Shown here piece by piece: positions 4,712-38,231 of a DNA stretch of 64,000 nt. Numbering within the stretch: the stretch's first letter is position 1; each line of letters begins with the position of its first letter. Position numbers and translations under genes: made by a program. The DNA is from Burkholderiales bacterium (GTDB lineage Bacteria > Pseudomonadota > Gammaproteobacteria > Burkholderiales > SG8-41), in contig JAIEPF010000021.1 in the NCBI GenBank assembly GCA_019749945.1, positions 62,001 to 126,000 of the forward strand, read 5' to 3'. Under the pieces are notes generated by a model. It did not search any database, was not told the DNA's origin, and worked only from the letters and a program-made list of their open reading frames with translations.

Positions 4712-5668
4712 ATGACCACCGCCACAGCCAGCGCACAAACACCAAGCCTGATCAAGGTTATCCCGGCACAAGCCGCCCTTGGCGCCGAAGTTGAAGGCGT
4801 TGATCTCACCACAATCGACGACGCCACGTTCCAAAAATTACACGGTATCTGGCTCGACCATCTGCTGCTGGTATTCCGCAAGCAGAAATTCGCGGCGCAG
4901 GATCTGGTCAGGCTGGTCAAACGTTTCGGCACGCCGGTCACCTCGTCCAACCTGCACAAGCGCGGGCTTGAGGAGCGCACCGCGAACAAGGTGTTCAATC
5001 TGCCGCCCGAAGTCACGGTGGTGACCAATGTCCGCGAAAACGGCAAACCCGTCGGCATCCTCGGTGACGGCGAAGTGGTGTGGCACTCGGATTTTTCGTT
5101 CAAGGAGGAGCCGACGGCGGCGCGCATGCTGCTGGCCGTGGAAATCCCCCCGGCAGGCGGACACACCTATTTTTCCAACTGCTATGCCGCGTACGACGCC
5201 TTGTCGCCGGCGATGAAAAAGCGCATCGTCGGCAAAACCATCAAGCAGGCCAACATCGTCGATACCGCGATGCAGATCCGGCCCGGCGCATCGCTGGACA
5301 TGGATATCCGTGACATCCCCGGCCCCAGCCACCCGATCATTTCCACGCATCCGGAAACCGGCCGCAACATGATTTTCCTCGGCCGCCGCCACAGCGCCTA
5401 TGTCAATGGCTGCACGCTCGAAGAATCCGAAGCCCTGCTCAATGAACTGTGGGCGCATGCCACCGACCCGCGTTTTGTCTACGAGCACCACTGGGCGGTG
5501 GGGGATGTGGTGGTATGGGACAACCGCGCCACGCTGCATCGCCGCGACGCCTTCAACTCGGACAGCCGCCGCGTGCTCTATGCCGCGCAGGTCGAAGGCC
5601 ATCGCCCGTTTGAGGCGCCCGATGCGCTGAGCCTGCCGCCGCATACGCGTTATGCTGTCGCGGCCTGA
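4712..5668 (+). CDS. TauD/TfdA family Fe(II)/2-oxoglutarate dioxygenase
   Basis: A 318-residue alpha-ketoglutarate-dependent dioxygenase, preceded by a CAGGAGG ribosome site. Iron ligands are visible as WHSDFSF (His125, Asp127) and the distal His276 in 'ATLHRRDAF', followed by the SRRVLY arginines that hold the 2-oxoglutarate carboxylate. The N-terminal 'LGAEVEGVDL' strand is characteristic of the TauD/TfdA branch. Such enzymes hydroxylate sulfonates, phenoxyacetates or other small acids. One of three paralogues in this window; the others start at 36279 and 56487. It sits 63 nt after the SDR gene in the same direction. Confidence 0.92.
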   Translation: MTTATASAQTPSLIKVIPAQAALGAEVEGVDLTTIDDATFQKLHGIWLDHLLLVFRKQKFAAQDLVRLVKRFGTPVTSSNLHKRGLEERTANKVFNLPPEVTVVTNVRENGKPVGILGDGEVVWHSDFSFKEEPTAARMLLAVEIPPAGGHTYFSNCYAAYDALSPAMKKRIVGKTIKQANIVDTAMQIRPGASLDMDIRDIPGPSHPIISTHPETGRNMIFLGRRHSAYVNGCTLEESEALLNELWAHATDPRFVYEHHWAVGDVVVWDNRATLHRRDAFNSDSRRVLYAAQVEGHRPFEAPDALSLPPHTRYAVAA

Positions 5669-5707
5669 GCGGTAATAATCCGCGCCACCACATCGGTGCG
5701 CGCCGGC

Positions 5708-5726
5708 GGGCGGCTTCAGGCCGCCC
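5708..5726. terminator. GC-rich hairpin without a U tract
   Basis: GGGCGGC and GCCGCCC form a 7-bp stem around a TTCAG loop between the dioxygenase gene and the next Bug gene. There is no T run after it, so it may attenuate transcription or stabilise an mRNA end rather than terminate. Confidence 0.3.
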
Positions 5727-5754
5727 GTGCCAAAACAATAACGGAGGACGTTTC

Positions 5755-6732
5755 ATGAATCGCAGTTTGTATTGTGCGTGCACCGTGTTCGCTGCCGCAC
5801 TGGTCGCATGGGCCATGCCATCCGGCATCGCCGCCGCGCAGAAATTTCCCTCCAAACCGGTGCGCATCGTGGTTGGTTTCGGTCCCGGCGGCGGCACGGA
5901 CCTGGCGGCGCGCGCGATCGGCCAGAAACTGACCGAAGCCTACGGCTCCTCGTTCATCGTCGACAACCGGCCGGGCGCCTCCGGCAACCTCGCCGGTGAC
6001 ATCGTGGCCAAGGCCAATCCCGATGGCCATACCATGCTGATGGCCAACTCGACCATCGCCATCCCCAGCCTGTCGATCAAGCTGCCCTTCGACATCCGCA
6101 GGGATTTCATTCCGCTGAGCCTGGTTGCGCTGGGGCCGTCGGTGCTGGTGGTGCATCCGGGCCTTCCCGCGACGGACGTGAAGGGCTTTGTTGCGCTGGC
6201 CAGGTCCAAACCCAAAAGCATGTCCTTCGGTTCGGGCGGCGTCGGCAACGTGACCCACCTCGCGATGGAACTGTTCATGGCCACCGCCGGCATCGAAATG
6301 CTGCACATCCCGTACAAGGGCGGCGCGCCCTCGGTGGTCGCGGTGATCAGCGGTGAAGTGCAGTCGGTGTTCACCTCGATTCCCGCCGCATTGCCGCAGG
6401 TCAATGCCGGCAAGATGCGCGCCCTGGGCGTGTCGATTTCGAAGCGCAGTTCGGCGCTGCCCAATGTGCCGACCATCGCCGAAAGCATGACCGGTTATTA
6501 CGCCGCATCCTGGTATGGGCTGCTGCTGCCGGCCGGTGTGCCGAAAGCGATCGTCGACTCGCTGTCGAAGGAAATCGTCGCCGCGATGGAAGTGCCGGCG
6601 ATCCGTGACGGCATGCTGAAGCAGGGTTTCGAGCCGGTCGGCAACAAACCCGATGAATTCAGGAAATTCATCGGCGAGGAAATCCCGCGCTGGGAAAAAG
6701 TCGTCAAGAACGCAGGCATCAAACCCGAATAA
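5755..6732 (+). CDS. Bug/TctC-family periplasmic solute-binding protein
   Basis: A 325-residue secreted binding protein, started by ATG after an ACGGAGGACG ribosome site. The signal peptide runs to about Ala27 (PSGIAAAQ). The first pocket loop is GPGGGTDL, followed by DNRPGASGNLAG. The second-domain 'LHIPYKGGAPSVVAV' is the usual hinge-side motif. It lies between the dioxygenase and enolase-superfamily genes, which suggests that it captures the substrate those enzymes process. No permease gene is nearby. Confidence 0.93.
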   Translation: MNRSLYCACTVFAAALVAWAMPSGIAAAQKFPSKPVRIVVGFGPGGGTDLAARAIGQKLTEAYGSSFIVDNRPGASGNLAGDIVAKANPDGHTMLMANSTIAIPSLSIKLPFDIRRDFIPLSLVALGPSVLVVHPGLPATDVKGFVALARSKPKSMSFGSGGVGNVTHLAMELFMATAGIEMLHIPYKGGAPSVVAVISGEVQSVFTSIPAALPQVNAGKMRALGVSISKRSSALPNVPTIAESMTGYYAASWYGLLLPAGVPKAIVDSLSKEIVAAMEVPAIRDGMLKQGFEPVGNKPDEFRKFIGEEIPRWEKVVKNAGIKPE

Positions 6733-6764
6733 CAGAACGTCGCGAAAACCACCGGGGCTTAGCC

Positions 6765-7940
6765 ATGATTGACCGCATCGAAATCTACGTCACCAGCCTG
6801 TCGACGCGCCTGAAGCGCATATTCTCCAGCGGCGTCTACGACACCGGGCCCAACGACAGCATCAACAGCAAGCCGGTGCTGGTGAAGGTCCACGCCGACG
6901 GCGTGGTCGGCACCGGGCAGATCCGGCCGATCAGCCCCGGCCATTTTGTCGCCGACACCACGCAAAGCATGGTCGCCGCGATCAGGGAAATCTACGGCCC
7001 GGCACTGCTCGGCAAGTCGATCTTCGACATCGAAGCCATCAATGAAATGTTCGACAACCGCCTCGCCAACAATCCGGCGGCGCGCGCCGTGCTCGACATT
7101 GCCGTGCGCGACGCGATGGGCAAGGCGCTGAAAACGCCCCTCTACAACCTGATCGGCGGCTGCTGCCAGCCGCGCATACCGCTGGAATGGTCGGTGAGCA
7201 TGGCGGATGACGTGCAGACCATGATCGAAGAAAGCAAGCGCGCAGTCGATGAATTCGGCATCAAGGTGCTGTGCCTGAAAATGGCCGACCGTCGCGGCTG
7301 GAAACACGATGTGGCGAACTTCGCCGCCGTGCGCAAGGCCGTCGGCGACGACATCATGATCGGCATCGACCCCAATGCCGGCTGGACGGTGGCCGATTCG
7401 CTGCGTGCCATCGCCGAAATCATCCCCATGGACCTCGGTTATATCGAACAGCCGATCGAACGCCGCGACCTCAAAGGCATGGCGGAAATCCGCCGTGCCG
7501 CGGGTGGCGTGCCGATGATGGCCGACGAGGGGGTGTTCACGCTGCAGGATGCCTTTGCGCTGGCCGAGGCCCGCGCGGTCGACGCCTATTGCATCAAGCT
7601 CTACAAGATCGGCGGCATCACGCCGGCCAAAAAAATCGCCGCAATGGCGGAAGCTGCAAACATCCAGCTCAACTGCGGCGGACTTGCCGTGCAGTCACAG
7701 CTCGAAGCCGCGGCCGGCGCGCATTTTTATGCCAGCGTGCCCAAGGCGCGCATGATGGGTGCCGCCGAATTCGTGATGGGCCTCAACGCCACGGCGAAGG
7801 ATCCGATCTGCCCGGAAAGCGATTTCAAGATCGTCGACGGCCATGTCCATGTGCCGACCGGCCCCGGCCTCGGCATCACCATCGACGAAAAACTGCTGAA
7901 GGCCAACACCCTGCTGCACGAGACGGTCAGTAAAAGTTAA
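6765..7940 (+). CDS. mandelate racemase/muconate lactonizing enzyme family protein
   Basis: A 391-residue enolase-superfamily enzyme that would abstract a proton alpha to a carboxylate. The metal ligands are recognisable as Asp202 ('IGIDPNAGW'), Glu228 ('YIEQPI') and Glu255 ('MADEGV'), with Lys278 on the opposite face ('CIKLYKIGG'). The KxK motif of the muconate-lactonizing subgroup is altered: 'LCLKMADR' gives Cys170-Leu-Lys172, so only the second lysine remains. The substrate is not predictable. It is the last gene of the SDR/TauD/Bug cluster and converges on a LysR gene 14 nt away. Confidence 0.87.
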   Translation: MIDRIEIYVTSLSTRLKRIFSSGVYDTGPNDSINSKPVLVKVHADGVVGTGQIRPISPGHFVADTTQSMVAAIREIYGPALLGKSIFDIEAINEMFDNRLANNPAARAVLDIAVRDAMGKALKTPLYNLIGGCCQPRIPLEWSVSMADDVQTMIEESKRAVDEFGIKVLCLKMADRRGWKHDVANFAAVRKAVGDDIMIGIDPNAGWTVADSLRAIAEIIPMDLGYIEQPIERRDLKGMAEIRRAAGGVPMMADEGVFTLQDAFALAEARAVDAYCIKLYKIGGITPAKKIAAMAEAANIQLNCGGLAVQSQLEAAAGAHFYASVPKARMMGAAEFVMGLNATAKDPICPESDFKIVDGHVHVPTGPGLGITIDEKLLKANTLLHETVSKS

Positions 7941-7954
7941 GGGCGCAGGCTGGT

Positions 7955-8887
7955 TCAGCGCGGCTTGCCGCCGGCCAGCGCCGACTGGATGGCCGTTTCA
8001 TCCAGCTGCGGCGCCAGCATGCGGATGAAATCGATGACGAACTTGCGTACATGCGATTTCGCGCGCAGCCGGGCGTAGGTCGTCGTCGGTTCAAACAGGT
8101 GGCTCGCGTCGCGTGCGCGCAAACCGCTGTCCTGCGCCTTGTTGTAGGTGATGGTGGTCAGGATCGCGATGCCCAGCCCCAGTTCGACATAAGTCTTGCT
8201 GACATCGGCATCGACCGCGCCGAACACGATGTTCGGCTCGATCCCCGCCTTGCGGAAGGCATTCATCACTTTCCAGCGCCCGCTGTACGCCGGGTCGTAG
8301 GTGATGATCGGGTGTTTGGCGATTTCCTTCAGCGTCAGGGTTTTGGCTTTCAGCACCGGATGCCCGACCGGCGCCACCACGCTGCGCGCCAGCGGAAAGC
8401 AGGCGATCGACGTCAGTGTCGGGAATTCGCGCACGGTATCCGGTCCGATGCTGATGTCGACGTCGCCGGCATCCAGCAATTCGCAGATCTGCTCCGGATT
8501 GCCCTGGCGCAGCCCGAGGCGGATGCCGGGATATTTTTTGATGAACTTCTCGATGATTTTCGGCAGCACATAACGCGCCATGGTGTGCGTGGTGCCGATG
8601 GTCAGCTGCCCCGTCGCTTCCGCGCTGAAATCCTGGCCGAGGTTTTTCAGGTTCTCGATTTCATTCCACACCCGCTTGATTGCGGCAATGGCCTGCTGCC
8701 CGGGTTCGGTCAGCCCGTTGATGCGGTTCCTTTTGCGCACAAAGATGTCGAAGCCCAGTTCCGCTTCGAGCAATTGAATCTGTTTGCTGATGCCCGGTTG
8801 TGAGGTATGCAGCGCATCGGCCGCCGCCGAAATGTGATTGCCCTGGCGGAAGACTTCGAGGATGTACTGCAGTTGTCTGAGCGTCAT
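7955..8887 (-). CDS. LysR-family transcriptional regulator, CysB-like
   Basis: A 310-residue regulator starting at the ATG of MTLRQLQYI. The N-terminal winged helix (residues 1-60) contains 'NHISAAADALHTSQPGISKQIQLLE'-like recognition sequence of the CysB/Cbl branch, in which the motif SQPGISKQI is diagnostic. The remainder is a LysR effector domain with 'LTIGTTHTMARYVLP' and 'GLGIAIL'. It converges on the preceding enolase-superfamily gene, so it may control the SDR-TauD-Bug-enolase operon through a site upstream of 3848, such as the dyad at 3710. Confidence 0.9.
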   Translation of the reverse strand: MTLRQLQYILEVFRQGNHISAAADALHTSQPGISKQIQLLEAELGFDIFVRKRNRINGLTEPGQQAIAAIKRVWNEIENLKNLGQDFSAEATGQLTIGTTHTMARYVLPKIIEKFIKKYPGIRLGLRQGNPEQICELLDAGDVDISIGPDTVREFPTLTSIACFPLARSVVAPVGHPVLKAKTLTLKEIAKHPIITYDPAYSGRWKVMNAFRKAGIEPNIVFGAVDADVSKTYVELGLGIAILTTITYNKAQDSGLRARDASHLFEPTTTYARLRAKSHVRKFVIDFIRMLAPQLDETAIQSALAGGKPR

Positions 8888-18633: not shown

Positions 18634-18870
18634 TTGAAATTCGGCCGTTTCCAACACCAATCCCGTACCTTCTTTGGCCTCGTCGAAGGCGACCAGGTCA
18701 TCGAGCTCGACGGTTCGCCGTTCACCAGCTACAAGGCCACCAGCAAGCAGCACGCGCTGTCTGCCCTCAAAACCCTGATCCCCTGCGAGCCGCGCAATTT
18801 CTACTGCGCCGCGCTGATCTATGCCGCGCCTATCGAGTGGGGCGCCAAAAGCAAGGGCATCGCGCGCCGC
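18634..18870 (+). pseudogene. duplicated 5' fragment of the FAH-family gene
   Basis: The 79 codons from 18634 repeat, at roughly 90% identity by eye, the first codons of the FAH-family gene starting at 19900 (for example YKATSKQHALSALKTLIPCE is identical in both). The start codon is TTG here instead of ATG, there is no ribosome site, and similarity ends at about 18870 where unrelated sequence begins. Upstream sequence is unlike that before 19900, so the duplication begins exactly at the start codon. Confidence 0.85.
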
Positions 18871-19899: not shown

Positions 19900-20688
19900 A
19901 TGAAATTCGGCCGTTTCCAGCACCAATCCCGCAGCTTCTTCGGCCTCGTCGAAGGCGATCAGGTCACCGAACTCGAGGGCTCACCGTTCAGCAGCTACAA
20001 GGCCACCAGCAAGCAGCACGCGTTGTCCGCCCTCAAAACCCTGATTCCCTGCGAGCCGCGCAATTTCTACTGCGCCGGCCTGAACTATGCCGCGCATATC
20101 GAATGGGGTGCGAAGCGCAAGGGTGTGGCGCCCAAGTATCCGGAAAAGGCCGACGTCGGTTACCGCTCGTTCAACGCCTTGTGCGCCACCGAAGAAGCCA
20201 TCGTGATTCCCGCCGATGCCTCGGACATGGTGCAGTTCGAAGGCGAGCTGGTGGCGGTGGTCGGCAAAACCGCGAAGAACCTGACCGAAGACAACGCGCT
20301 GTCCTGCATCCTCGGTTACACGCTGGGCAATGACGTCAGCGAACGCAACTGGCAGAAATCCGACCGCACGCTGTGGCGCGCGAAAAACTGCGACACCTGG
20401 AAACCGATGGGCCCCTTCATCGCGACCGGCCTTGATCCGATGAACCTCGACATCGAGATCCGCATGAACGGCCGGCGCGTCGCCGGTTACAACACCGGCA
20501 AGATGCTGTTCTCGGCGCAGCGTTACATCGCCGAGATCACGCGCTACATGACCCTGCATCCGGGTGACGTGATCTGGCTCGGCACGGATGATGCGACGGA
20601 GCCCAATCTGAAACACGGCGACGTCTGCGAAATCGTGCAAAAAGACATCGGCATCCTGCGCAGTCCGGTGCTGCGCGCAGCGGTTTAA
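19900..20688 (+). CDS. fumarylacetoacetate hydrolase (FAH) family protein
   Basis: A 262-residue enzyme of the FAH/HpcE family. Start ATG 19900 follows GAAAGGATT. The metal site is visible as 'VQFEGELVAVVG' with the Glu-x-Glu pair, then 'GNDVSERNWQKSDRT' and 'ITRYMTLHPGDVIWLGT', all family hallmarks. Members hydrolyse, decarboxylate or hydrate beta-diketo acids in aromatic-compound degradation. It lies 98 nt from the convergent end of a Bug gene. Its first 237 bases are duplicated at 18634-18870. Confidence 0.9.
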   Translation: MKFGRFQHQSRSFFGLVEGDQVTELEGSPFSSYKATSKQHALSALKTLIPCEPRNFYCAGLNYAAHIEWGAKRKGVAPKYPEKADVGYRSFNALCATEEAIVIPADASDMVQFEGELVAVVGKTAKNLTEDNALSCILGYTLGNDVSERNWQKSDRTLWRAKNCDTWKPMGPFIATGLDPMNLDIEIRMNGRRVAGYNTGKMLFSAQRYIAEITRYMTLHPGDVIWLGTDDATEPNLKHGDVCEIVQKDIGILRSPVLRAAV

Positions 20689-20786: not shown

Positions 20787-21752
20787 CTATTCCAGCTTGA
20801 TGCCGGCGGTCTTGACGACCTTGGCCCATTTCTCGATTTCGGATTGGACGAAACGGCCCCATTCTTCAGGCGTGCTGGTCTGGATTTCGACGCCGGCGGT
20901 GGCGAGTTTTTCGATGACGTCGGGCAGCGCCAGTGCGCGTTTGATTTCGGCGTTCAGTTTGTTGACCACCGGCGCCGGTGTTTTGGCCGTGGTGAACATG
21001 CCCTGCCAGTCGAGCACCGAGAAACCCGGGATGCCCGCTTCGGACACCGTCGGTACTTCGGGCGCGGCGGGGGAGCGTTTGGGCGCGGTGACGGCCAGCG
21101 CGCGCAGTTTGCCGTTGCGCACGAAGGGGATCGACGACGGCATGCTGGCGAAGCTGCCGGAAATCTGTCCGCCCACCAGGTCCGCCATCGCCGGGCCGCC
21201 GCCCTTGTAGGGCACATGCACGACTTCGACCTTGGCGAGAATCTTGAACAGCTCGACCGCCATGTGCGGCGCGCCGCCGGCGCCGCTGGAGCCGAAGGTC
21301 AGTTTGCCGGGCTGGGCTTTGGCCAGCGCGATCAGTTCCCTGACATTGGCGGCGGCCACGCTGGGGTGCACCACCAGCAGGTTGGTCACATTGCCGGTGT
21401 AGGTGACCGGCGCAAAATCCTTGACGATGTCGTAGGGCATTTTGTAGAGGCTGGCATTGATCGCCATCGGGCCGATGCTCGACAGCAGCAGTGTGTGGCC
21501 GTCGGGCGTCGCTTTTGCCACCAGGTCGGCGCCGATCATGCCGTTGGCGCCGGGGCGGTTGTCGACAACCACCTGCTGGTTCCACGCGGCCGCCATTTTC
21601 TGCGCCAGTACCCGCGCCACCAGATCGGTGCTGCCGCCGGGCGCGAAGCCGAGGATCATGCGCAGCGGCCGCGCCGGATAATCCTGCGCCGCCGCAAACG
21701 CGCAGCTGCACAGCAGGCTGCCCAACATCACCAGATTTACAATGTGCTTCAT
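20787..21752 (-). CDS. Bug/TctC-family periplasmic solute-binding protein
   Basis: A 321-residue binding protein, ATG 21752 preceded by GGAGCAGACC. The leader has LGSLLCSCAFAAAQ: it can be cut as an ordinary signal peptide after FAAA, although LLC could also serve as a lipobox. Pocket loop APGGSTDL, second lobe DNRPGANGMIGA and 'VHVPYKGGGPAMADLVGG'. It is divergent from the amidase gene at 21904, with about 150 nt for promoters of both. Confidence 0.92.
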   Translation of the reverse strand: MKHIVNLVMLGSLLCSCAFAAAQDYPARPLRMILGFAPGGSTDLVARVLAQKMAAAWNQQVVVDNRPGANGMIGADLVAKATPDGHTLLLSSIGPMAINASLYKMPYDIVKDFAPVTYTGNVTNLLVVHPSVAAANVRELIALAKAQPGKLTFGSSGAGGAPHMAVELFKILAKVEVVHVPYKGGGPAMADLVGGQISGSFASMPSSIPFVRNGKLRALAVTAPKRSPAAPEVPTVSEAGIPGFSVLDWQGMFTTAKTPAPVVNKLNAEIKRALALPDVIEKLATAGVEIQTSTPEEWGRFVQSEIEKWAKVVKTAGIKLE

Positions 21753-21903
21753 TGGTCTGCTCCCGCTGTGATCCAATAGAATGGAATGGTTGAGGCGTTT
21801 CGCTGTTCCAGTGCGCACGCTAGGGCACCGGTCCTGACGCTGTCAATACAAATTCATTCAGTGATTACCGCAGCTTTATTATCCTGTCCCGGAGCCGCAA
21901 CCG

Positions 21904-23265: not shown

Positions 23266-23377
23266 GAGGCGCAATCCCGGTGTGCGCCGGCGGTCCTGAA
23301 CTTGTGCCATGGCAGGCTGCTTGCAGCTTGTATACTGCTTTGGCAGTCCACCAAAACAACAAGCGACGGAGGAGACC

Positions 23378-24361
23378 ATGAAAGGATTTTCTGCAATAAC
23401 CCGCAGGGCCTTGCTGATCCTGCTTGCGGGCAGTGTTGCGGCGGGTGCGGTGCAGGCGCAAACCCCCGCTTATCCGAGCAAGGCGATCCGCATGGTCATC
23501 GCGCTGGCGCCGGGCGGCGGCGTGGATACCACCGGCCGTTTCATCGCGCAGAAGCTGAGCGAGGCCTGGGGCCAGTCCGTCGTGTCCGACAACCGGCCCG
23601 GCGCCGGCGGAACGATTGCCGCAGAAATCGTCGCGCTGGCGCCGCCCGACGGCCACACCCTGCTGATGACCTCGGCCGGCATCACCATCACGCCGAGCCT
23701 GATGAAACTCTCCTATGATCCGCGCCGCGATCTGCTGCCGGTGACACTCGCCGTGGTGTCACCCGGCGTGATGGTGGTGCATCCGTCGATCCCGGTGAAA
23801 AACATCAAGGAGCTGATTGCGTTCGCCAAGGCGCGGCCGAACCAGCTGTTTTTTTCGTCTTCGGGCCTCGGCTCGGCGCAGCATCTGACCACCGAACTGT
23901 TTGCGCAGATGACGGGGCTCAAGATGACCCATGTGCCGTACAAGGGCACGGCGCCGAGCATCACTGATGTGGTCGCCGGGCGCATCGCACTCACCGTCGC
24001 CAGCGTGATCTCGACGCGGCCGTTTTTCACCACCGGCAAACTGCGCGCGCTGGCCGTGGTCGGCCCCAGGCGCACGCCCGCGCTGCCCGAGTATCCGACC
24101 ATCGCCGAATCAGGCGTGCCCGGTTTCGGCGTGGATAACTGGTACGCGTTGTTTTTGCCCGGCAAAACCGACAAGGCCATCGCGGTGAAGATCCAGGAAG
24201 CGGTCACCCGCATCGTCAACGATCCGGCGACCGAGAAGCTGCTGCGCGGCCAGGGCCTCGATGCCGTCGGCAACACGCAGGCGGAGTTTGAAAAACTCTA
24301 TGCCGCCGAAATCAACACCTGGGCGAAAGTGGTGAAAACCATCGGCATGCAGCCGAACTGA
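23378..24361 (+). CDS. Bug/TctC-family periplasmic solute-binding protein
   Basis: A 327-residue secreted binding protein. ATG 23378 follows GGAGGAGACC. The leader begins MKGFSAITRRALL, with paired arginines, and is cut near AVQAQ (28). Its first pocket loop, APGGGVDT, differs from the other nine in the window by Val at the third variable position, which may reflect ligand choice. Second lobe: DNRPGAGGTIAA. A strong terminator 30 nt downstream ends this transcript. Confidence 0.93.
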   Translation: MKGFSAITRRALLILLAGSVAAGAVQAQTPAYPSKAIRMVIALAPGGGVDTTGRFIAQKLSEAWGQSVVSDNRPGAGGTIAAEIVALAPPDGHTLLMTSAGITITPSLMKLSYDPRRDLLPVTLAVVSPGVMVVHPSIPVKNIKELIAFAKARPNQLFFSSSGLGSAQHLTTELFAQMTGLKMTHVPYKGTAPSITDVVAGRIALTVASVISTRPFFTTGKLRALAVVGPRRTPALPEYPTIAESGVPGFGVDNWYALFLPGKTDKAIAVKIQEAVTRIVNDPATEKLLRGQGLDAVGNTQAEFEKLYAAEINTWAKVVKTIGMQPN

Positions 24362-24448: not shown

Positions 24449-25339
24449 ATGAAAAATAATCCAATACGGTCTGCCGCATGCGCGTTGCGCGGTGTCACCG
24501 GCATCCCGGTGTTTATCCTGACCGCAGTGCTGGGACTGGGCGTGGCCACGCCCGCCGCTGCGCGGCCGGTGCTGGAGCAACTGGCGGAATTCGCTGTGCC
24601 TGACGCCAACCAGGGCGTGGGTGTGGATCGCGATCACTTCTATGCCGTCAACAACCGGACCATCGGCAAATACGACAAGCAGACGGGCAGGCTGGTGAAA
24701 AAATGGCAGGGCGAGAAGGATGGCCCGATCAAGCACCTCGACAGCGCGATGGTGATGAACGGCAGGATCTATGCCGCGCATTCCAATTATCCGGAATGGC
24801 CGATGACCAGCTCGGTGGAGATTTTTGATGCGGAAACCATGGAGCACACGGGCTCGCACAGCTTTGGCATCCAGTGGGGTTCGCTGACCTGGATGGACTG
24901 GCATGACGGCCATTGGTGGATGACCTTCGCCAATTACGACCGGCTGCTCGGGCCGGGCAAGACGCCGTACGGCCACAAGGCCAATACGGTGATGGTGAAG
25001 TTCACGCGTGATTACCGGCCGTTGCAGTCATGGACGCTGCCCAAGTCGGTACTCGACCGCTTCGAGGACATGAGCAACTCCGGCGGGTCTTGGGGCCCCG
25101 ACGGATTCCTCTACCTGACCGGCCACGATCCGGCCGAGCTCTACCGGATGCGCCTGCCCAGGGCGGGCTCGGTACTGGAACTGGTCGAGGCCATCCCGAT
25201 GAACATCCGCGGCCAGGGCATCGCCTGGGATCGTTCCCGGCCGGGCGTCATCTACGGCATCATCCGCGCCACCGCGAAAGAGCGGGAAGCGGGGAGCAGC
25301 CACAAGGTGACGGTGTTCAAGCTGGAAGAAAAACCTTAA
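24449..25339 (+). CDS. secreted beta-propeller-like protein
   Basis: A 296-residue exported protein, ATG 24449 after AGGAGGGCAT. The signal peptide is long (MKNNPIRSAACALRG, hydrophobic stretch, cut near AAA-RP at 38). The mature part has repeated strand patterns with Asp, Tyr and Trp-rich turns ('DHFYAVNNRTIGKYDKQTGR', 'SVEIFDAETME', 'WDRSRPGVIYGI') like six-bladed lactonase or cycloisomerase propellers. No catalytic residues can be named. It is the first gene of the UGSC selenoprotein operon, 50 nt upstream of it, so it may act in the periplasm on the same pathway. Confidence 0.7.
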   Translation: MKNNPIRSAACALRGVTGIPVFILTAVLGLGVATPAAARPVLEQLAEFAVPDANQGVGVDRDHFYAVNNRTIGKYDKQTGRLVKKWQGEKDGPIKHLDSAMVMNGRIYAAHSNYPEWPMTSSVEIFDAETMEHTGSHSFGIQWGSLTWMDWHDGHWWMTFANYDRLLGPGKTPYGHKANTVMVKFTRDYRPLQSWTLPKSVLDRFEDMSNSGGSWGPDGFLYLTGHDPAELYRMRLPRAGSVLELVEAIPMNIRGQGIAWDRSRPGVIYGIIRATAKEREAGSSHKVTVFKLEEKP

Positions 25340-25389: not shown

Positions 25390-27111
25390 ATGAGCAATCA
25401 AACAGGGCAATACGCCGCGCTGTGGCCGCGCGGCCCGCGCCAGGCCAAAGTCAAACCGCTGGCGAAACGCCTCGACACGCTGGACGGCAAAACCGTGGCC
25501 TGGGTCTGGGACTATGTGTTCCGCGGCAACGAGGTGTTCGAGCAGCTGGAGCAAAGCCTGCGCGCGAAATATCCCGGCGTGAAATTCCTGCACTGGGATC
25601 TGTTCGGCAACACCCACGGCAGTGACGAGCGCAACGTGGTCGCCAAGCTGCCGCAGAAGCTGCGCGAACTCGGCGCCGATGCCGTCGTCTCCGGGATGGG
25701 GTGTTGAGGGAGCTGCACGCCCGCCGTGTTGCGGGCCAGTGTAGCGGCAGAGTCGGTGGGTATCCCGTCGGCGACGCTGGTCTGCGAGAGTTTCATGACC
25801 CTGGCCAAGACGGCTTCTCAAGGGCTGGGGTATCCGAACATCGCGGTGGCCCCGGTGCGCGGCCACCCGGGGCTGCAGAGCAAGGAAGTGCTGCAGCAGA
25901 ATGTACGTGAACTGACGCTGGATGGTGTGCTGAATGCACTGTTCAAAACACCGGCGCTGGCGACGGTCGGCGGCGAGCCGGGTGCGCGCGACATCATCTG
26001 CAGCGGCAGCTTTGAGGATGTGAATGAATATTTCCTCCGGCACGAACTCTCCGACGGCCTGCCCATCGTGCCGCCGACGGTGGACAAGGTCGAAGCCTTT
26101 CTCCAATACACCGACCGCCAGGCCGATGAAGTGCTGGGTGTGCTGCTGCCCGACAACCGCGCGGCGACGGTGTGGAGTGTTGCGGTGAACGGCGTGATGG
26201 CGGGTTGCCGGCCGGAATACATGCCGGTGCTGGTGGCGGCGGTGGAGGCGATGGCCGACCCGGATTATGGTGTTGAACACAGCGGCAACACACCGGGCGG
26301 CGACAACCTGATCGTGTTGAACGGCCCGATCATCAAGGAGCTCGGTTTTAATTACACCCAGGGCGTGATGCGCGACGGTTTTCAGGCCAACACCAGTGTC
26401 GGCCGGTTCTGGAGATTGTACTTACGCAATGTCGCCGGGTTCCTGCCGCACAAGAATGACAAGGCCACCTTCGGCAACACCTGGCGCGTGGTGGTGGCGG
26501 AGAATGAAGATGTTGTCGCAAAAATCGGCTGGCCGCCGAATTGTGCGGACTATGGATACGCTGCCGGGACCAATGCGCTGTCGGTCGGCCGTTACACCGG
26601 CGGCAATCACATCTCGTCGGTGTCCGGCGCGACACCGGAAGAACTGCTGCCCTATATCGCCGACGCCGTGCTGCGCCAGTACTCGTGGCAGATCATGTTC
26701 AGCGTGGGCCAGGGTTACGACACGCTGCGGCCCTTGTTGCTGCTGTCGCCAATCATCGCCGAGACCATTGCCGCCGGCGGCTGGTCGAAACAGAAATTCC
26801 GTGAAGAACTGTTCAGGCGGGCGCGCATGCCGGCGCAGGAGTTCGAACGCATCCTGCGCGACTGGACGCAAAAGCCGACCTGGAACCTGACGGAAGAACA
26901 CAAGGCCGGGTGCATACCGGAAATTTTCCATGAGTCCGATGATCCAGAGCGTCTGGTGCCGATCGTGTGGCGGCCGGAGGATTTCCAGGTGGTGGTGACC
27001 GGTGACCTCGGCCGCAACAGCATTTATGTGTTTGCGCACAACGGCGTGCTCGGATTTCCGGTGGGCAAGGAAATCCATTTACCGAAAAACTGGAAAACCT
27101 TGCGTGGATAG
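25390..27111 (+). CDS. UGSC-family selenoprotein fused to an SDGLP/VMAGC domain
   Basis: A 573-residue protein if the TGA at 25705-25707 is read as selenocysteine. Frame 25390 runs without another stop to TAG 27111, and the TGA is the first codon of Sec106-Gly-Ser-Cys109, the motif that names the UGSC (seleno)protein family; a cysteine (Cys105) precedes it. Residues 1-185 are the UGSC domain ('KTVAWVWDYVFRGNEVFEQL', later 'ESVGIPSAT'). Residues 207-573 are a second domain with 'ELSDGLPIVPPT' and 'VMAGCRPEYMPV' (Cys273), homologous to the free-standing proteins at 52186 and 53251. A SECIS-like hairpin follows the TGA. Function unknown; a redox or reductase-like role at Sec/Cys is an inference. 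Confidence 0.88.
25705..25736 (+). promoter_or_regulatory. selenocysteine TGA and bacterial SECIS-like hairpin
   Basis: TGA 25705-25707 is followed by GCCCGC (25719-25724), a six-base loop CGTGTT and GCGGGC (25731-25736). The stem is perfect and can extend by a CAC/GTG pair across a small bulge. The loop begins 18 nt after the TGA and has G as its second base, matching the usual bacterial SECIS requirements (loop 16-37 nt from UGA, G among the first loop bases). All of this lies within coding sequence. Confidence 0.8.
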
Positions 27112-27601
27112 CCTGAATCAATTGCTGCCGCATGCCGTGCGCGTCACCCGGCTGCTGATCGCGCGCAAGCAGACCATCACCATCGCCGAATCGGCCGCGG
27201 GCGGCTTGATCAATGCCGCGCTGCTCGCCGTGCCCGGCGCCTCCGCCTGCTGCCGCGGCGGGCTGGTGGTCTACACCTACGAAATCCGCCGCGCATTGCT
27301 CGGCATCAGCGATGCCGATATGCAGGGCCTCACGCCGGCGACCGAAGCCTATGCCTTGCTCGCCGCGCGCCGCACCCGCGAGCGAGTGGGATCCGACTGG
27401 GCGCTCGCCGAGACCGGCGCGGCGGGCCCGACCGGCAGCCGTTATGGTTATGCCGCGGGTCACGCCTGCTTTGCGGTGGCGGGACTGGCGGAAGCTTCGC
27501 GCACGCTGGAAACCGGCAGCGCGGACCGTGTCGCCAACATGCATGCCTTCGCGGCGGCGGCGCTGGACCTGCTGGCGGAGGTGGTGGCGGCTACGGGCTG
27601 A
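27104..27601 (+). CDS. CinA C-terminal domain (nicotinamide-nucleotide amidohydrolase-like) protein
   Basis: A 165-residue stand-alone CinA C-terminal domain. The start GTG 27104 lies inside the end of the selenoprotein gene (8-base overlap), implying coupled translation. Family motifs are 'TITIAESAAGGLINAALLAV' (the usual is T(V/I)ATAESCTGG, here with Ala-Ala for Cys-Thr), 'YTYEIRRALLGI' and 'LAETGAAGPTG'. PncC-type enzymes deamidate NMN; the altered ESAAGG loop, which normally holds a catalytic Ser/Cys-Thr pair, leaves activity uncertain. Confidence 0.82.
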   Translation: MDSLNQLLPHAVRVTRLLIARKQTITIAESAAGGLINAALLAVPGASACCRGGLVVYTYEIRRALLGISDADMQGLTPATEAYALLAARRTRERVGSDWALAETGAAGPTGSRYGYAAGHACFAVAGLAEASRTLETGSADRVANMHAFAAAALDLLAEVVAATG

Positions 27602-29908: not shown

Positions 29909-30874
29909 ATGAGAAATTCTTTAGGTGGACGCCTGATTGCATCGTTGGCGCTGACCTTCGCGTTGAATGCGATGGCCCAGGATTACCCGAACCGCCCGAT
30001 CCGGATGATCGTGCCGCTCGCCCAGGGCGGTTCGGCGGACATCCTGGCGCGGGTGGTCGGCAACGACCTGGCGGAGCGCCTCGGCAAACCGGTTCTGGTC
30101 GAGAACCGCACCGGCGGTGGCGGGCATATCGGCTCGGAGTTTGTTGCCAAGGCGGCGGCTGACGGTTACACGCTGTTATCGGCGGGCATTCCGCAGGCCA
30201 TCGGCATGAGCCTGTACAAGAACCTGTCGTACGACATGGGCAGGGATCTGATCGCCATTACGCAGGGCGCGACGTTTCCCAGCGTGATCGTCGTGCATCC
30301 GTCGCTGCCGGTGAAAACCATGAAGGAGTTGATCGCGCTGGCCAAAGCACGTCCCGGAAAACTGAACTATGGCGCCAACACTGGCTCGCCCAACCATCTG
30401 GCCATTGAGCTGCTGAACGTGGGCAGCAATGTCAAGATGGTGCACATACCGTACAAAGGTGCGGGGCCGGTGGTGACCGATGTGATGGCGGGACATATCG
30501 AACTTGCTTCGCTGGGCCTGCCGCCGGCGTTGCCGATGGTGCAGGCCGGACGGCTGCGCGCAATTGCTGTTACCGGTGACAAAAGGTCTGCGCAATTGCC
30601 CGACGTGCCGACGGTCATCGAGTCCGGCATTCCGGGATACAACGTCACTTCGTGGTACGGTTTTTTTGCGCCCGCCCGTACACCAGCGGCAATCATTAAC
30701 CGGTTGAATACGGAAATCGTTGGTGTACTGAAAATGCCGGAAGTAAACAGAAAACTGGCGGCTCTGGGCGCGGATGTCACGCCGACCGGTGTCGATGAAT
30801 TTGGCAAGTTCGTGCGCGATGAAATCCAGAAGTGGGCCAAGGTCGTCAAGGCCTCCGGCGCAACCGCGGAATAA
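29909..30874 (+). CDS. Bug/TctC-family periplasmic solute-binding protein
   Basis: A 321-residue binding protein with AGGAGGCAGGG before ATG. The leader (MRNSLGGRLIASLALTFALN) is cut at AMAQ. The pocket loop AQGGSADI carries Gln instead of the usual Pro or Ala before the two glycines. Second lobe: ENRTGGGGHIGS. It lies between the amidohydrolase and RraA genes in one direction, which makes a lactone or tricarboxylate ligand plausible. Confidence 0.93.
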   Translation: MRNSLGGRLIASLALTFALNAMAQDYPNRPIRMIVPLAQGGSADILARVVGNDLAERLGKPVLVENRTGGGGHIGSEFVAKAAADGYTLLSAGIPQAIGMSLYKNLSYDMGRDLIAITQGATFPSVIVVHPSLPVKTMKELIALAKARPGKLNYGANTGSPNHLAIELLNVGSNVKMVHIPYKGAGPVVTDVMAGHIELASLGLPPALPMVQAGRLRAIAVTGDKRSAQLPDVPTVIESGIPGYNVTSWYGFFAPARTPAAIINRLNTEIVGVLKMPEVNRKLAALGADVTPTGVDEFGKFVRDEIQKWAKVVKASGATAE

Positions 30875-33249: not shown

Positions 33250-34218
33250 TTATTGCGCCACGATGCCTGCTTTGCGCAGAACGGTGGCGAAGGTGGCGGT
33301 GTCCGCCAGGATCAGCCGCGAAAATTCTTCCGCCGTGCCGCCCAAAACGTCGAATCCCTGGCTGGTTAGTTTTTGCCGCGTGTCTCCGGTATCCAGGGCT
33401 TTGTTGACATCGGCATTGATTTTCTGGATCACCGGCTTCGGCGTGCCGGCCGGCACTACGAAGCCGAACCAGTTCTTGAATTCATAGCCGGGAACACTTT
33501 CCGCAAGAGCGGGAATCTGGTCAGCCACGGCAGACCGCCTGGCGGAAGTGATGCCGAGGATGCGGATGCGGCCGCTGCGGTGCAGCGGCAGAAGATTGGG
33601 CAGTCCGGTCATCACGAGCGGGATCTGGTTTGAAACGACGTCCATCATCGCGACGTTACCCCCCTTGTAGCTGACGTGGGTAATGTCGATGCCGGCCATC
33701 GCTTTGAATATTTCGCCCGCCAGATGCCCGCCGCTGCCGATGCCGGCCGTGCCGTAAGCCAAAGATCCCGGCCGGGCCTTTGCAATATCGAGCAGTTCCC
33801 TGACAGTATTTGCCCTGAAACCGGGGTTCGTGCCCAGCGCCATCGGCTGTTCGGCAATCAGGACGGTTGCGGCGAAGTCACGCGTTGCGTCATAAGGCAG
33901 CTTCTTGTGCAGGGCGGGGTTGGCGGCGAGCGCGTTTGGGGACAGATAAATGGTGTATCCGTTGGGGCTGGCCTTGGCGGCGGTTTCCGTGGCGATGATC
34001 GTGGCGCCGCCCGGCCGGTTATCCACCACGACCTGCTGCCCCCACAGTTCGGTCAGCCGTTGTGACACCACCCGGGCCACCAGGTCGAATGTTCCGCCGG
34101 CAGCGAAGGGCACGATTACCCTGACCGGTCTTGCCGGATAGGTTTCAGCCGCCGCGGCTGCCGTGTGGCAACCGAGAAGCAGCAGGACAAAGACGGTTTT
34201 CCAAAACGTGTGTTTCAT
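33250..34218 (-). CDS. Bug/TctC-family periplasmic solute-binding protein
   Basis: A 322-residue binding protein; ATG 34218 after GGAGGAGGCC. The leader has LLLLGCHTAAAAAE, so an LGC lipobox is possible as well as a plain cleavage after AAAA. The pocket loop AAGGTFDL is unusual in having Phe before Asp. Second lobe: DNRPGGATIIAT. It is divergent from the enolase-superfamily gene at 34330, and the shared promoter region holds a 15-bp palindrome, so both are probably controlled by the GntR protein encoded at 35412. Confidence 0.92.
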   Translation of the reverse strand: MKHTFWKTVFVLLLLGCHTAAAAAETYPARPVRVIVPFAAGGTFDLVARVVSQRLTELWGQQVVVDNRPGGATIIATETAAKASPNGYTIYLSPNALAANPALHKKLPYDATRDFAATVLIAEQPMALGTNPGFRANTVRELLDIAKARPGSLAYGTAGIGSGGHLAGEIFKAMAGIDITHVSYKGGNVAMMDVVSNQIPLVMTGLPNLLPLHRSGRIRILGITSARRSAVADQIPALAESVPGYEFKNWFGFVVPAGTPKPVIQKINADVNKALDTGDTRQKLTSQGFDVLGGTAEEFSRLILADTATFATVLRKAGIVAQ

Positions 34219-37283: not shown

Positions 37284-38231
37284 ATGCGACCGTGGCAACA
37301 GTTTCTTTTGATATGTGCGGGCGCTGCAGGTCTGAACGGCACATTGCCCGCGCAACCCTATCCGGCAAAACCGGTGCGCATCGTCACCGTGGCGCCGGGC
37401 AGCGCGAACGACATCGTCGCGCGGCTGATTGCGCAGGAACTGCGCCCGGTGCTCGGGCAAGCCGTGGTCGTGGATAACCGCGGCACCATTGCCGCCGAGA
37501 TCGTGGCGCGTGCGCCCGCCGACGGCTACACGCTGCTGCTCTACGGCAGCGCCGTGTGGCTGTCACCGTTCATCCGCAGCAACACGCCTTATGATCCGGT
37601 CAAGGATTTTGCGCCGGTCACGCTGGTGGCGAGTTCGCCGAACATCATCGTCGTGCATCCGTCACTGCCGGTGAAGTCGGTGCGCGAACTGATCGCGCTG
37701 GCGAAGGCGCGGCCTGGCGATCTCAATTACGCAGCGGGCTCGCTGGGCGCGGCGCCGCATCTCGCCGCCGAGCTGTTCAAGTCGATGGCGCAGCTCAACA
37801 TCGTGCGCGTGGCCTACAAGGGCACCGGCGGTTCGCTGATCGGCATTCTCAGCGGCGAGGTGGAAATGATGTTTCCGACGGCGGGTTCGGTGACGCCGCA
37901 CATCAAATCCGGAAAACTGCGCGCGCTGGCGGTGACCAGCCTGCAGCCGACGGCGCTGGCGCCGGGACTGCCGGTGCTTGCAGCGTCCCTGCCCGGTTAT
38001 GAGTCGGTGTCGCTGAATGGCATGTTCGCGCCGGCGAAGACACCGGATCCCATCATCCGCCAGCTCAACCAGGAAATCACGCGCATCATGACCCGGCCCG
38101 ATGTGAAGGAAAAACTCGTCGCCGCCGGCACCGATGCCATGGCCACGACGCCCGAGGAATTTGCCGCGACGATCAAATCCGAAATGGCGAAGTGGGGCAC
38201 ACTGATCCAGAACGTCGGTATTCGCGAATAA
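37284..38231 (+). CDS. Bug/TctC-family periplasmic solute-binding protein
   Basis: A 315-residue binding protein; ATG 37284 after AAGGAGGAGGCC. The leader MRPWQQFLLICAGAAGLNG is cut near LPAQ. The first pocket loop reads APGSANDI: the second Gly is Ser, the most divergent of the ten in the window. The second loop is also shortened, DNRGTIAAE instead of DNRxGxGGxxG, so the ligand site is probably altered. It follows a terminator and stands alone, convergent with a methyltransferase gene. Confidence 0.9.
   Translation: MRPWQQFLLICAGAAGLNGTLPAQPYPAKPVRIVTVAPGSANDIVARLIAQELRPVLGQAVVVDNRGTIAAEIVARAPADGYTLLLYGSAVWLSPFIRSNTPYDPVKDFAPVTLVASSPNIIVVHPSLPVKSVRELIALAKARPGDLNYAAGSLGAAPHLAAELFKSMAQLNIVRVAYKGTGGSLIGILSGEVEMMFPTAGSVTPHIKSGKLRALAVTSLQPTALAPGLPVLAASLPGYESVSLNGMFAPAKTPDPIIRQLNQEITRIMTRPDVKEKLVAAGTDAMATTPEEFAATIKSEMAKWGTLIQNVGIRE

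Follow-up and report, generated by a model that had tools for sequence, protein, structure and literature searches.

The UGSC-fusion gene and its in-frame UGA codon

Translation of the window, by which we mean the whole 64,000-nucleotide stretch of DNA analyzed here, reveals a single frame of 573 residues on the plus strand at positions 25390 to 27111 that ends with TAG and holds one TGA, at 25705 to 25707, corresponding to residue 106. Read with the standard code, the region is split into an ORF that ends at 25707 and a GTG-initiated ORF of 461 amino acids spanning 25726 to 27111. A first-pass annotation had taken these two apparent genes to be one frame with a single TGA, followed by Gly-Ser-Cys and then by about 460 intact codons. 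The translation bears this out, as the residues surrounding the codon are Cys105-Sec106-Gly-Ser-Cys109 and the downstream frame is open to the TAG. The predicted product joins an N-terminal UGSC domain (residues 11–176; 25420 to 25917, plus strand) to a second domain of about 380 residues (residues 196–573; 25975 to 27108, plus strand). Related genes were found at 79 GTDB loci, with identities of 28 to 89%.

A CinA-like gene with a GTG start (27104 to 27601, plus strand) overlaps the stop of the UGSC fusion by 8 nt, and the same pair occurs in a close relative (locus L026), where the CinA-like gene at 8066 to 8551 also overlaps the end of the fusion. Upstream, also on the plus strand, lie a gene whose 296-aa product has a probable signal peptide (24449 to 25339) and no relative in the other homologous loci compared, and a gene for a TctC-type solute-binding protein (23309 to 24361), recognized by its resemblance to a cluster of TctC proteins from the homologous loci that was verified with Pfam. 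By resemblance, at least five TctC-like proteins are encoded in the window within less than 18 kb (23309–24361, 29909–30874, and 37284–38228, with 20787–21818 and 33253–34218 on the minus strand), standing among amidase-, amidohydrolase-, RraA-, and aldehyde dehydrogenase-like genes. The window also contains a 231-nt direct repeat with 89% identity (18635–18865 and 19901–20131), and part of the fumarylacetoacetate hydrolase-like gene at about 19.6 to 20.7 kb is apparently duplicated 1.3 kb upstream.

The alignment column corresponding to Sec106, whose inspection the first-pass annotation had recommended, is occupied by TGA in 78 rows, by TGC or TGT in 13 rows, and by neither in a single row, where rows outnumber loci because some loci hold several paralogues. 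The lone exception is GGC in one paralogue of locus L062. A tree built from 49 sequences requires at least three changes between the Sec and Cys forms. A nonsense mutation in a decaying gene, or an error in sequencing, would account for the TGA itself and for nothing further. This explanation is already refuted because of the homologue column, in which 78 rows from many phyla carry TGA at the same position, and it is further opposed by the intact remainder of the frame, the sel genes of the host, and the SECIS constraint described below. Thus, we regard it as having a vanishingly small chance of being correct.

Two features of the homologues are recorded here in their own right. The L062 locus, a contig from Lachnospiraceae, holds three paralogues of the UGSC fusion (899–2380, 5226–6890, and one with its TGA at about 10160), which at the aligned column carry one TGA, one TGC, and one codon that is neither. 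In addition, some UGSC fusions of both the Sec and the Cys form begin with apparent signal peptides (L012, L020, L011, and several of L093–L103), which suggests that these proteins may be exported.

Directly after the TGA, the transcript is predicted to form a bacterial SECIS-like hairpin (25712 to 25745, plus strand) with a minimum free energy of about −22 to −23 kcal/mol. Its stem pairs GCCCGC (25719–25724) with GCGGGC (25731–25736) below the apical loop CGUGUU (25725–25730), whose first base lies 18 nt past the codon. Relative to other stretches of the same genes, the 45 nt starting at the TGA fold with a mean z of −2.1 among 65 TGA homologues, compared with a mean z of −0.6 among 12 Cys homologues, and an early G is present in the apical loop of 64 of the 65 TGA homologues. 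Covariation was tried as the principal evidence for the hairpin and set aside, as the counts barely exceeded those from shuffles. The clearest stem exchange, from G15-C32 to A15-U32, occurs in five homologues, and the outer stem is only partly conserved. Because the stem is almost invariant, covariation is limited, and we relied instead on the freezing of synonymous sites: Pro111 is encoded by CCC in 92% and Arg115 by CGG in 95%, values that exceed those at all 136 comparable positions in the rest of the gene. The hairpin after the TGA is more than a chance structure. It had been proposed, with its loop 18 nt downstream, from the window alone, and it proves to be both stable and conserved among TGA homologues.

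The host genome also encodes the machinery for selenocysteine insertion, as the first-pass annotation had suggested should be checked through selA, selB, selC, and selD. It contains a tRNA-Sec (75.9 bits, anticodon tca), SelA (528.9 bits) with adjoining SelB domains, and SelD (420 bits; locus L022, G000:C33:53021-53947), which is itself Sec-containing, with one TGA in GGGUGCK. Among loci picked by the author before the outcome was seen, SelB scored above its cut-off in 17 of the 18 genomes carrying TGA homologues compared with 1 of the 10 carrying Cys homologues (Fisher p 1.4e-5, which is only indicative, as these genomes are interrelated). Locus L062, which holds both TGA and TGC copies and in whose assembly SelB is not above the cut-off, was excluded from this comparison. 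The sole miss among the TGA genomes is that of L031, where weaker fragments only were found and the assembly may be incomplete. The host carries a further apparent selenoprotein, PrdB-like, with a TGA in the context TPV-U-PNC (G000:C37:156441; L104:1393-2625), which matches TIGR04483 at 9.8e-34, under the cut-off.

These data bear on whether UGA might be decoded as another amino acid, or simply be read through by a general mechanism. The exchange partner at the column is Cys, SelB co-occurs with the TGA form, and the hairpin stands at the distance expected for a bacterial SECIS element, and so we consider such decoding highly improbable. From these comparisons, it is nearly certain that the UGA at 25705 is decoded as selenocysteine to give one long selenoprotein. 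SelB, directed by the hairpin at 25712 to 25745, would bring Sec-tRNA-Sec to this codon. The earlier proposals of a fusion, Sec decoding, UGSC family membership, and a SECIS-like hairpin are all supported, and no refuting result turned up. The first-pass annotation put forward no mechanism other than a Sec-based chemistry.

Standard gene callers truncate the UGSC fusion at its UGA codon. Acidovorax sp. T1 has the TGA form; its listed 97-aa hypothetical protein stops exactly there, and the PLSDB gene table, which is incomplete, has nothing over the remainder of the gene.

Domain composition and predicted fold

Residues 11 to 176 match Pfam PF24696 with 94.2 bits (cut-off 25; E 1.3e-26), and all 49 aligned homologues match this family at E ≤ 0.1, which confirms the earlier assignment to the UGSC family. 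With the NF041046 equivalog model, the fusion protein of the window scores 46.4 bits, under the cut-off of 125; the stand-alone UGSC genes of L019 and L013 clear it. In the 2008 Global Ocean Sampling (GOS) survey, UGSC ranked fifth by number among the selenoprotein families, and Fig. S1A of that paper depicts it fused to one extra conserved domain, Unknown_1 (PMC2398784). The family and a fusion to Unknown_1 were thus on record by then. The second domain of the window protein is probably the Unknown_1 of that survey, in which case the fusion is not new. UGSC is an abundant environmental selenoprotein family to which a 2026 review still assigns no function.

The AlphaFold2 model (pLDDT 92.9) presents the UGSC domain as alternating strands and helices, in which Sec106 directly follows the third strand (residues 98–104), ahead of a helix spanning residues 109 to 121. 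The GOS authors supposed a likely thioredoxin-like fold for the family (PMC2398784). However, the order of elements typical of thioredoxin, with CxxC at the first helix, is not seen in the model, and profile searches yielded no thioredoxin family match for the UGSC domain. The model therefore supports a predicted fold that is not thioredoxin-like, contrary to the 2008 supposition.

Weak profile similarities point instead to GrdB and PrdB. For the UGSC gene of L013, the E values are 4.3e-6 with TIGR01917 and 2e-4 with TIGR01918, both sub-threshold, and the UGSC region of the window likewise yields only sub-threshold matches, under the cut-offs of TIGR01917, TIGR01918, and TIGR04483. When aligned by hhalign to GrdB/PrdB-like proteins of the host phylum, the UGSC profile gave an E value of 1.2e-4 with a probability of 55%, placing Sec106 on Sec and Cys109 on Cys; with a smaller alignment, the same region was matched at a probability of 4%. 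A PDB sequence search with profiles of the UGSC domain, the second domain, and GrdB/PrdB-like proteins returned nothing useful and identified no solved GrdB or PrdB structure. Similarly, Foldseek with the full model found only weak flavodoxin-like hits (E 9e-4, TM 0.2), with a convincing match in the PDB for neither domain. Although the statistics are weak, the UGSC domain is likely to be distant kin of the Sec region of GrdB and PrdB.

The second domain matches no family in profile searches of Pfam, NCBIfam, or PHROGs, and similarity to GrdE or PrdA was not detectable. Apart from UGSC fusions, it is found as a stand-alone gene and joined to a thioredoxin-like domain. The host carries two further copies, one in a fused TGA gene (L017) and one in a split pair (L019) whose UGSC gene likewise contains a TGA and overlaps the second-domain gene. 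Related genomes have the same split pairs, at loci L013 and L015. In L018, a UGSC gene follows a second domain fused to a thioredoxin-like one, and fusions of the second domain with a thioredoxin-like CPTC domain are present in L018 and L040.

The second domain also exists as a separate gene and has invariant Asn, Arg, and Glu residues that belong to it alone, which is consistent with a reading in which this domain is the enzyme, such as an organic-acid lyase, hydratase, or isomerase, and UGSC is a redox switch or a carrier of the substrate thiol and not the reductant. A Foldseek search with this domain, in which class I fumarate hydratase was weakly matched (E 1e-4), points in the same direction. 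Although fumarase hits recurred, the match is not interpretable because its TM is ≤0.23 and its rmsd about 17 Å. Moreover, in the four split loci inspected manually (L013, L015, L018, and L019), the second-domain gene adjoins a UGSC gene, and we judge it improbable that the second domain is the catalyst in this sense. A pyruvoyl cofactor in the second domain was considered as well. In some fusions, however, Ala or Gly takes the place of the near-invariant Cys273, the candidate residue, which is thus not universal. Together with the lack of detectable similarity to GrdE or PrdA, this leaves a pyruvoyl mechanism unsupported.

Neighboring genes and a candidate electron donor

Genes for TctC solute-binding proteins accompany the fusion in 21 of the 79 loci, TrxR-like CxxC flavoproteins in 12, selA in 8, and selB in 5; these counts are approximate because neighboring genes were called by the author's simple frame-composition rule, without a formal background rate. 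Often, the TrxR-like gene immediately follows the fusion or an additional second-domain gene (L028, L041, L043, L046, and L047). No TrxR gene adjoins the UGSC gene in the window, and the TrxR-like gene of the host (L021:11164-12072) follows selA-selB in the sel operon. Against the thioredoxin reductase equivalog TIGR01292, which has a cut-off of 343 bits, the flavoproteins of the host sel operon and of L047 score 232 to 234 bits and that of Variovorax boronicumulans scores 160 bits, and these proteins therefore look like a divergent group. The flavoprotein of Variovorax sp. SRS16, at 380 bits, is an orthodox TrxB. Both Variovorax examples are annotated plasmids with the Cys form, arranged as FAD oxidoreductase-TctC-fusion in V. 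boronicumulans and as trxB-TctC-SDR-second domain-UGSC in strain SRS16. In glycine reductase operons, trxB and trxA accompany the enzyme. The gene order around the UGSC fusions supports the TrxR-like flavoprotein as a partner and makes it the putative electron donor.

In a rival reading, UGSC would be a generic thiol-disulfide oxidoreductase or a peroxidase that protects or activates the second domain within the same Sec-containing fusion. General redox work of this kind fits both the TrxR-like neighbors and the thioredoxin-like fusions, the Sec-x-x-Cys spacing resembles the CxxC of thioredoxin, and the likely thioredoxin-like fold given in the GOS paper (PMC2398784) would agree with it. Nevertheless, the order of elements in the high-confidence model and the lack of a thioredoxin family match to the domain speak against such a role, the weak profile matches favor GrdB and PrdB, and the genes nearby are catabolic and transport genes, not stress genes. 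We therefore consider a generic redox function less likely, though with an appreciable chance.

A proposed reductase and its relation to known systems

The reading we prefer is that the UGSC fusion is a GrdB/PrdB-like, NAD(P)H-driven reductase component, and we give this model as a whole about an even chance. The fusion would act as the terminal component of the reductase. In its N-terminal UGSC domain, Sec106 would end the central strand and could be resolved by Cys109, three residues on, and the C-terminal domain would probably bind the substrate. Electrons from NAD(P)H would pass to the TrxR-like flavoprotein and then, either directly or through a thioredoxin domain, to the Sec106/Cys109 pair. 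We infer that the Sec selenolate might then attack an imported organic acid, cleaving or reducing it as in the glycine and proline reductases; both substrate and reaction are assigned in this tentative sense.

Kinship to GrdB and PrdB, together with a TrxR-like partner and neighboring TctC genes, would turn an "unknown redox protein" into a testable reductase with a named partner. The interest of the locus is this testable function for a long-unassigned selenoprotein family, not the fusion itself. More broadly, UGSC proteins could supply the catalytic subunit in a widespread branch of GrdB/PrdB-type reductases that is fed by a dedicated TrxR-like flavoprotein and acts on carboxylic acids imported through TctC by means of a domain without a known relative, a generalization to which we assign slightly less than an even chance.

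Compared with the UGSC family as defined by PF24696 and NF041046, the window protein shares the Sec-Gly-Ser-Cys motif and the whole UGSC domain, and differs in its fused second domain and in its divergence, as reflected by the NF041046 score below the cut-off. In contrast to the GrdB and PrdB complexes, UGSC has no recognized GrdE or PrdA partner, and the second domain matches none of their families. The UGSC domain also falls below all GrdB and PrdB family cut-offs and lacks the upstream GrdB region. What it appears to share with GrdB, GrdF, GrdH, and PrdB is the local arrangement around Sec, wherein Sec follows a strand, Cys lies three residues on, and a helix comes next.
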